NCBI GenBank assembly: GCA_947494675.1
Contig: CANLVP010000003.1
Location: 62,001-126,000 of the forward strand
Direction: 5' to 3'
From: an uncultured Paracoccaceae bacterium
Lineage (GTDB): Bacteria; Pseudomonadota; Alphaproteobacteria; Rhodobacterales; Rhodobacteraceae
Length of the DNA: 64,000 nucleotides
A program made the translations under genes and the position numbers. How positions within the stretch are numbered: the stretch's first letter is position 1; each line of letters starts with the position of its first letter. Below the pieces are notes generated by a model that worked only from the letters and a program-made list of their open reading frames with translations, was not told the origin of the DNA and did no database searches. Below are positions 17,094 to 42,720 of this stretch, piece by piece.

Positions 17094-17582
17094 ATGTCCG
17101 TCACGCTCGACATCCAACAGCCCGCGCCATTTGACCTAGTGGGCCCGACCATTCTGATCGCAGGCAACGCCACCGCATTTGAGGGCGTTCTGTCCGTCTC
17201 CGTCACCGAAGGCCACGACGAATACAACGCCATCGCCACGGTCGGATCGCTTGGCTTGCGCCAGTTTCAAGCCAGCATCGACATCCCCGACACCAACCTG
17301 TTCCAACTTGACCGGGTCTTCGTCACACTGGCCGATGATGGCGCGACCGCAGACGGCCCCCGCGTGACGATCCCGGTGCTTTACGGGCCGCGCATCATGC
17401 CCGGCTATCGCGGCTGGCAGCCCTACGTGGTGCAATCAGGCGATACGCTCACCAGCATCGCCAATGCGCAATACGGCAGCCCGGACTTTCAGCCGATCTT
17501 TCGCGCCAACGCGCATATCCTGACCAGCCCGGACCTGATTTTCCCGGGCCAGGTCCTGCGCATCCCACGCGACGATATCTAA
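17094..17582 (+). CDS. LysM peptidoglycan-binding domain protein
   Basis: C-terminal LysM YVVQSGDTLTSIANAQYGSPDFQPIFRANAHILTSPDLIFPGQVLRIP. Confidence 0.85.
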   Translation: MSVTLDIQQPAPFDLVGPTILIAGNATAFEGVLSVSVTEGHDEYNAIATVGSLGLRQFQASIDIPDTNLFQLDRVFVTLADDGATADGPRVTIPVLYGPRIMPGYRGWQPYVVQSGDTLTSIANAQYGSPDFQPIFRANAHILTSPDLIFPGQVLRIPRDDI

Positions 17583-17636
17583 AGCGCGCGACGACGCGAC
17601 GACATCTAAAGCGCGCGGCGATGCGACGACATCTAA
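17568..17636 (+). repeat. In-frame 27-bp tandem repeat of the LysM gene 3' end, each unit ending in a TAA stop
   Basis: cgcgacgatatctaa | agcgcgcgacgacgcgacgacatctaa | agcgcgcggcgatgcgacgacatctaa. Confidence 0.85.
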
Positions 17637-29938: not shown

Positions 29939-29967
29939 TCGGATTGGGCTTAACGCCTGTTAGGACT

Positions 29968-30043
29968 TCGGTGCGCATGGGTTGTGCATCACCTGTGCAT
30001 GGTTTTCATACAGGTTCTGCATCGCCGTTTTCGACCGTTCGGT
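29968..30043 (-). repeat. Copy A of an ACCG(NN)CGGT plus 11-bp iteron-like element
   Basis: Minus strand: ACCGAACGGT...ATGCAGAACCT GTATGAAAACC ATGCACAGGTG ATGCACAACCC ATGCGCACCGA. Confidence 0.75.
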
Positions 30044-30051
30044 GGGGGGGG

Positions 30052-30128
30052 TGGTACCGCCTCCCCGGCTTGAACGGGGGACCCCTGGTTCCACAAACCA
30101 GTGCTCTAACCAACTGAGCTAAGGCGGC
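30052..30128 (-). tRNA. tRNA-His (anticodon GTG), CCA encoded
   Basis: GCCGCCTTAGCTCAGTTGGTTAGAGCACTGGTTTGTGGAACCAGGGGTCCCCCGTTCAAGCCGGGGAGGCGGTACCA folds as a cloverleaf; anticodon loop TTGTGGA. Confidence 0.96.
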
Positions 30129-42232: not shown

Positions 42233-42303
42233 ACCGTTCGGTCGTTTCAAGGTGATGCAGAAACCATACAGAACCTATGCACGGATGATGCAGAACCTGT
42301 ATG
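42233..42303 (+). repeat. Copy B of an ACCG(NN)CGGT plus 11-bp iteron-like element
   Basis: ACCGTTCGGT...ATGCAGAAACC ATACAGAACCT ATGCACGGATG ATGCAGAACCT GTATG. Confidence 0.75.
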
Positions 42304-42312
42304 CCCTCAAGT

Positions 42313-42720
42313 CTAAACGAAATTAACCACCACGCGGCGGGTGTGGGGGGCATTGCGGTGCTCAAAAACATAGATGCCCTGCCATGTGCCCAGCATCATT
42401 CGCCCATCCTGCACCGGGATCGAGAGCGAGGTGGGCAGCATCGCCGCCTTGATATGGGCGGGCATATCATCGGGGCCTTCGTAGGTGTGGGTGAGGTAGG
42501 ACATCGACGGATCCGTCGTCGGCGGGACGAGGCGCGCAAAGAAGTTTTGCAGATCGGTCTGCACTTCGGGATCGGCGTTTTCCTGGATCAACAGACTGGC
42601 AGAGGTGTGCTGGATCAACAAGGTCAGCAGCCCGTCACCCTGCCCTTTGATCAGGGCCGCGACGTCTGCTGTGATCTCATAAAGGCCGGGGCCGCGTGTT
42701 GGGAGGGACACAATCTGCAT
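42313..42720 (-). CDS. YjbQ family (UPF0047) protein
   Basis: LLTLLIQHTSASLLIQENADPEVQTDLQNFFARLVP; MMLGTWQGIYVFEHRNAPHTRRVVV. Confidence 0.92.
   Translation of the reverse strand: MQIVSLPTRGPGLYEITADVAALIKGQGDGLLTLLIQHTSASLLIQENADPEVQTDLQNFFARLVPPTTDPSMSYLTHTYEGPDDMPAHIKAAMLPTSLSIPVQDGRMMLGTWQGIYVFEHRNAPHTRRVVVNFV

Follow-up and report, generated by a model that had tools for sequence, protein, structure and literature searches.

Dispersed, helically phased 7-mer arrays as probable polar start or stop sites on Rhodobacteraceae chromosomes

The 64,000-nucleotide stretch of contig C3 from an uncultured Paracoccaceae bacterium analysed in this study (the window) carries an 11-bp repeat array in the spacer after its tRNA-His gene, and it raises the question of what task a repeat phased to about one helical turn performs at such a place. 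The sequence-only reading of the locus had described, on the minus strand, a palindrome ACCGAACGGT (30043-30034), a spacer of 11 bp and five 11-bp units (30022-29968), and on rereading the layout was found to be exactly this. The site (copy A) is accompanied by a second one (copy B), and a scan of the window with a position weight matrix (PWM) gives no further array above threshold. The elements are arranged as follows.

29949-30043, minus strand: copy A, whole element consisting of array, palindrome and tail
30034-30043, no strand assigned: copy A palindrome ACCGAACGGT, genus-specific accessory, 11 bp ahead of unit 1
Between ACCGAACGGT and the first unit, minus strand: copy A 11-bp spacer CGAAAACGGCG, from the sequence
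29968-30022, minus strand: copy A five 11-bp units, ATGCAGAACCT, GTATGAAAACC, ATGCACAGGTG, ATGCACAACCC and terminal ATGCGCACCGA, from the sequence and a PWM match at C3:91968
29949-29967, minus strand: copy A tail AGTCCTAACAGGCGTTAAG, recurring in arrays of the own genus
30052-30128, minus strand: tRNA-His, adjoining copy A
4968-29967, minus strand: putative downstream domain of copy A, ~25 kb, with strong G>C skew on the array strand; the coordinates express the generic reach
42233-42328, plus strand: copy B, whole element, second array in the window
42233-42242, no strand assigned: copy B palindrome ACCGTTCGGT, from the sequence
42255-42309, plus strand: copy B units ATGCAGAAACC ATACAGAACCT ATGCACGGATG ATGCAGAACCT GTATGCCCTCA, from the sequence, the PWM scan and congener spacers
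42310-42328, plus strand: copy B tail AGTCTAAACGAAATTAACC, from the sequence

The second unit of copy A, noted earlier as out of register, is a variant (RTATGRAAAC) that recurs within the genus (9 of 75 arrays) and is absent elsewhere (0 of 87). The full-length element of ~97 bp has many further copies in the own genome, at 70-90% identity by BLAST. The tRNA-His neighbour is located as described; its proximity to the array is incidental. The tRNA itself shows several apparently paired changes among congeners, in the anticodon stem and the T arm (window 30052-30128, L097-L101), and the version of the own genome is common to G004 only. A tandem repeat of 27 bp (ACGCGACGACATCTAAAGCGCGCGACG; 2.6 copies, 93% match) is present at window positions 17567-17636.

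Both copies belong to a family with the core (ATGCACA-N4) repeated about four times at an exact 11-bp period, the last unit being ATGCATA or ATGCGCA. When up to 3 mismatches are tolerated, a two-unit pattern has 132 matches in the own genome (3.92 Mb) compared to 1 for the reversed pattern, and a PWM trained on the arrays and scanned over 800 kb of contig C3 finds 15 arrays compared to 0 in the reversed sequence at thresholds of 14 to 24; the genome-wide recurrence that the sequence-only reading had proposed to check thus lies far above chance. Among the matches listed, the own genome has ~64 arrays (about 60-70); C1 accounts for 31 of them, C2 for 18 and the 800 kb of C3 for 15, and the density on C1 is ~1 array per 58 kb. 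A broader consensus, (ATGCACA-N4)n-ATGCRYA, has any match in 33 of 397 genomes (reversed control, 2 in all) and gives, for example, 112, 100, 91, 84, 77, 64 and 51 matches in array-rich other genera. Vannielia litorea is one of the array-bearing species. The architecture there is nearly fixed, with four units of which the last is ATGCATA, ATGCGCA or a near variant, and PWMs of the units from several genera exhibit head-to-tail half-sites at 11 bp. The palindrome, in the form ACCGNNCGGT, is found within ~100 bp of 27 of the 75 own-genus arrays (~0.5 expected from its density), and where the distance could be measured it stands 11-12 bp ahead of unit 1 in 15 of 17 arrays; since it is near just 1 of 87 arrays of other genera, it is understood as a genus-specific accessory and not as core. 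That the palindrome lies outside the core had been missed in the sequence-only reading. Among 72,556 plasmid records there was no convincing array match and one weak match, and viral matches to the array pattern proved to be tandem sequence of other kinds. The LexA box of Alphaproteobacteria (GAAC-N7-GAAC) was rejected as an identity of the array: GAAC depends on a G at position 6 of the unit, the units of other genera read ATGCACA or ATGCATA, and GAAC is lost at orthologous sites.

The phased units had been expected to persist in orthologous spacers, and in five congeners they do so: copy A keeps its phased array with the four spacer bases freely changed, and all that orthologous sites retain is a 7-mer every 11 bp. 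Copy B is in place in 3 congeners; in 2 others the spacer was rearranged and the array stayed with the YjbQ-family gene. Clusters of neighbour genes are shared across genera, with array side and orientation mostly preserved. The shared sites include the livG-livH spacer (several genera), gltD and idi, and one site has both neighbours common to the own genome and genome G382; in an xthA-like cluster, the array side differed. On a ychF tree (23 usable rows, weakly supported branches), the array-rich genera are scattered and do not form one clade, which leads us to favour an ancient origin of the system, followed by losses or by drift of the motif. In genome G101 (L252), scored as array-free, three exact GTATGAC at 11-bp period followed by an inverted GTCATAC lie ~30-75 bp 3' of ychF, in the place of the ATGCACA array of G382; as a single case, this hints that GTATGAC units may represent a second motif class or motif drift. 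Genome G292 (L257) has a weaker variant array near ychF (reverse strand, ~1364), composed of three GGTGCAC at 11-bp period (GTGCACG, GTGCACA, GTGCACA). No exact 7-mer triplet occurs at any period of 8 to 15 bp in 800 kb of the own genome.

The distribution of the arrays along the chromosome follows rules of its own. Among the arrays listed, gaps are more regular than random, with a coefficient of variation (CV) of.49 on the own contig C1 (P =.0002),.52 in G382 (P =.0005),.60 and.57 on two G262 contigs (P =.007,.006) and, reflecting weaker regularity,.76 in G332 (P =.02). Gap length also depends on relative orientation: the median among the arrays listed is 29 kb for divergent (n = 43), 61 kb for tandem (n = 104) and 87 kb for convergent pairs (n = 44), the difference of divergent and convergent gaps having P = 9e-10 over four genera and the effect of orientation being present in each of the four (p <=.003, strand permutation, arrays listed). 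The order of divergent < tandem < convergent implies that arrays need room on their downstream side. The listed arrays of G382 are co-oriented with the replichores (14+/2- and 2+/8-), and the own contig C1 shows no strand polarity along the contig (p =.83). A 233-kb stretch of the own C3 (G000, 409-642 kb) is without arrays; GC skew there is positive for ~40 kb past the last array, then near zero, and the stretch may be a terminus, an island or a region of drifted arrays.

The arrays also coincide with a strand asymmetry in base composition. The array strand is the G-rich strand at 143 of the 162 arrays listed, and gene orientation was rejected as the cause of the skew because it does not explain this coincidence. 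Skew along contiguous sequence was evaluated for 800 kb of the own genome, 400 kb of one other and short windows of a third, and the profile at four-fold degenerate sites for one genome (800 kb of C3). Read in array orientation, the four-fold-site skew on C3 stays at +0.18 to +0.19 between 0.1 and 15 kb downstream and falls to +0.14 at 15-25 kb and +0.04 at 25-35 kb. On the upstream side, the first 3 kb have +0.11, and farther out the skew is ~0. The downstream value on C3 is equalled by 0 of 5000 random-site trials and by 0.08% of random strands at array positions, a control uninformative for the downstream-minus-upstream difference, which is strand-independent. Skew is higher downstream than upstream at 19 of 23 arrays (P = 1.3e-4). 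Gene skew is +0.116 for array-co-oriented, -0.203 for anti-oriented and -0.041 for other genes, and four-fold sites show no change in TA skew with array orientation. The halves of G382 carry opposite skew, with sign changes within ~1-2 kb of arrays facing against the replichore, and along 400 kb of G332 the skew increases on the approach to each array and beyond it, then falls off downstream. Around copy A, a 10-kb track gives a plus-strand skew of -0.06 to -0.14 from ~100 to 30 kb of C3. KOPS-like enriched oligomers were rejected as the source of skew, the top-skewed 5- to 8-mers being merely G-rich. GC-skew peaks in Rhodobacterales have been described as coinciding with core genes and the gene transfer agent (GTA) cluster, in passages that link the peaks without naming a DNA element (PMC9836097); given this coincidence, part of the array-skew association could reflect conserved neighbourhoods.

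The phased and conserved 7-mer implies a specific protein that binds in head-to-tail order, and it is most naturally understood as a platform for sequence-specific cooperative binding to a single face of the DNA. The sequence-only reading had suggested this, and the conserved 11-bp phase, the 7-mer retained beside a drifting 4-bp spacer and the fixed unit number speak for it; phase and binding thus endure from that reading, its RNA-level option does not, and it missed a polar effect over tens of kb at ~64 sites. Even and orientation-dependent spacing, together with the one-sided skew at silent sites, argues for a one-way transaction that is started (or stopped) at the array. The one-sided skew over 20-25 kb and the orientation-dependent spacing agree in indicating, indirectly, a polar and processive event. 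We consider it probable, and well supported, that the array has a polar long-range role; it would be a polar start or stop site, as distinct from an ordinary operator or RNA element.

Gene context helps to weigh the more conventional explanations. As judged with a simple purpose-made gene caller, 38 arrays in a set of 40 from seven other genera are intergenic, often with a stop codon within 30 bp, and 10 of the set of 162 lie inside predicted genes; orientation to genes is mixed, antisense being ~2x commoner than sense among same-direction pairs, and the flanking genes show no evident functional class. The frequent placement right after stop codons speaks for an element that acts in the transcript, as a 3' UTR or a processing site, the RNA-level option raised earlier. 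Arrays, however, occur in both orientations to genes, RNA folding gives no structure signal (z ~ -0.7 on both strands) and Rfam no match besides tRNA, so that the idea is scarcely credible. Only slightly better placed, and still very improbable, is a dispersed mobile repeat of MITE or REP-like kind, whose spacing would result from target immunity. The many ~97-bp copies in the own genome and their intergenic location favour it, and REP/BIME, ERIC and RIME are likewise dispersed, extragenic and often at gene 3' ends; these, however, are palindromic and mobile, whereas the arrays are direct repeats at conserved positions. From genus to genus the arrays stay at the same sites and in the same orientations, with nothing but the motif conserved, the spacing is orientation-dependent and the skew directional, and in place of the insertion turnover and inverted-repeat ends of REP/MITE elements there are shared positions and a direct-repeat core. 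The 7+4 architecture with head-to-tail half-sites is the pattern of the OmpR/PhoB family, whose boxes consist of a 7-bp motif with a 4-bp spacer, head to tail. An operator of a global transcription regulator of this type would account for the 7-mer direct repeats and for some arrays being ahead of genes. Yet PhoB/OmpR-family boxes sit in regulon promoters and the arrays do not: instead of promoter placement at a coherent gene set, many are found at gene 3' ends or within operons in either orientation, the distances fit no promoter rule, and no functional set is evident among the flanking genes. Operators are also not known for even spacing or for a one-sided effect over 25 kb, making this explanation unlikely.

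Other explanations include a long reach. The arrays could start a one-way single-strand process, in the form of oriT-like nicking with strand transfer or of rolling-circle or auxiliary one-way replication, in which the array strand is displaced and mutates asymmetrically. The upward jump in skew at arrays, of the kind seen at replication origins, and its decay downstream would be consistent with it; deamination, however, should also shift T versus A, which is not seen at four-fold sites, no nic or hairpin feature was identified, and the plasmid records lack a convincing match. We regard this process as unlikely, a shade more so than the operator. Less unlikely than both, though still doubtful, are polar chromosome-architecture sites that would load or block either a complex of SMC or MksB type that extrudes DNA loops or some other nucleoid protein. 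Their layout would be like that of CTCF boundaries, with divergent arrays as boundaries and convergent arrays facing across large domains. Even and orientation-dependent spacing, independence of gene function and direction, and co-orientation with the replichores in G382 all fit this proposal. KOPS, Chi, matS, Noc and SlmA sites and eukaryotic CTCF are, like the arrays, dispersed, some of them polar and with an orientation-dependent layout; KOPS and Chi, however, are far denser, and matS, Noc and SlmA sites are palindromic. To our knowledge, none of these combines four phased units with a skew that extends 25 kb to one side, and we know of no such architecture site system in Alphaproteobacteria, which counts against the proposal, as does the lack of an obvious reason for a silent-site G/C asymmetry that begins at the array.

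The best explanation, which we put forward tentatively, is that the arrays are pac-like start sites for GTA packaging. How GTAs choose chromosomal DNA and where packaging starts is an acknowledged open question (PMC11841831); GTAs are without a known pac (PMC6854486, PMC11841831) and package by headfuls of 4-4.5 kb (PMC11841831). As proposed here, a putative sequence-specific protein would bind head to tail on one DNA face, ~4 protomers each engaging the 7-bp motif with its 4-bp spacer, and the bound complex would mark the start of a processive one-way transaction running ~20-25 kb from the array, 5' to 3'. The transaction would be GTA DNA packaging and transfer, extending over some five or six headfuls from each array. 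Such packaging would require starts distributed along the chromosome, and the even spread of arrays would let the chromosome be sampled. Import of one strand is described as established for transformation (PMC8579336); if packaging determines which way round the DNA lies in the particle, the same strand would always be taken up and recombined, hence a strand bias. An imprint on G/C but not on A/T would fit, by our own inference, C:C mismatches that escape mismatch repair. Among phage systems, P1 pac has several hexamers at 11-12 bp spacing. Phage pac sites resemble the arrays in a short repeated motif in helical phase and in being polar, starting a one-way event over several headfuls; they differ in that pac occurs once per phage genome, whereas the arrays number ~64 on a host chromosome.

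The evidence specific to GTA is divided. In Dinoroseobacter shibae, of the same bacterial family, discrete chromosomal packaging peaks are reported (PMC11841831), in agreement with the proposed starts; the peaks (Tomasch 2018 via PMC11841831) are few and symmetric, unlike the arrays, and GTA coverage peaks as reviewed are symmetric and not one-sided (PMC11841831). The array-rich genomes that were tested possess a GTA TIM-barrel gene, which in G061 is a fragment at the edge of a contig, but GTA genes occur in array-free genera too, and G170, with a truncated and fused GTA remnant, still carries some arrays. In that remnant (G170:C1:798459-799034), one open frame of 836 aa joins the beginning of the GTA large terminase to the end of the GTA TIM-barrel domain, an apparent fusion of the cluster by a large deletion. 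The TIM-barrel family has 13 matches in G414 and 5 in G160, which suggests that each of these genomes may hold more than one GTA-like cluster, or else prophages of a related kind. The TerS candidates that adjoin GTA terL are ~105-140 aa in array-rich and array-free genera alike; inspected by eye, they show no obvious added DNA-binding domain, and several loci are without a clear candidate. A TerS with an extra DNA-binding domain (HTH), as predicted for array-rich genera, was thus not supported, and GTA packaging from the arrays would need a separate host factor. The skew of ~+0.1 already in the 3 kb upstream of arrays, and a 25-kb reach that is less than the mean spacing of 58-114 kb (among arrays listed), also count against the best explanation. 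The own GTA cluster (G000:C2:181-193 kb) lies between divergent arrays at 175143 (minus) and 210664 (plus), so no nearby array faces it; in four genomes the cluster is at least 35 kb from any facing array (by eye), which, as a sign that the cluster is kept out of downstream domains, is not significant.

Lastly, the arrays connect local domains of GC skew, which are commonly interpreted as marks left by replication or inversions, with a discrete DNA element whose orientation-dependent layout is seen in four genera. A wider reading, which we hold to be possible though somewhat short of probable, is that of an ancestral Rhodobacteraceae system in which a putative protein sets dozens of evenly spaced one-way starts, as GTA origins or CTCF-type borders, with the motif drifting and the positions persisting. 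Taken as a whole and with the same reserve, it would make the arrays the first sequence-defined origins of GTA packaging or transfer, or else a bacterial counterpart of CTCF. Should the arrays prove to be polar architecture sites, a layout of CTCF type would exist in bacteria; if they are packaging starts, the choice of chromosomal DNA by GTAs becomes directly testable.
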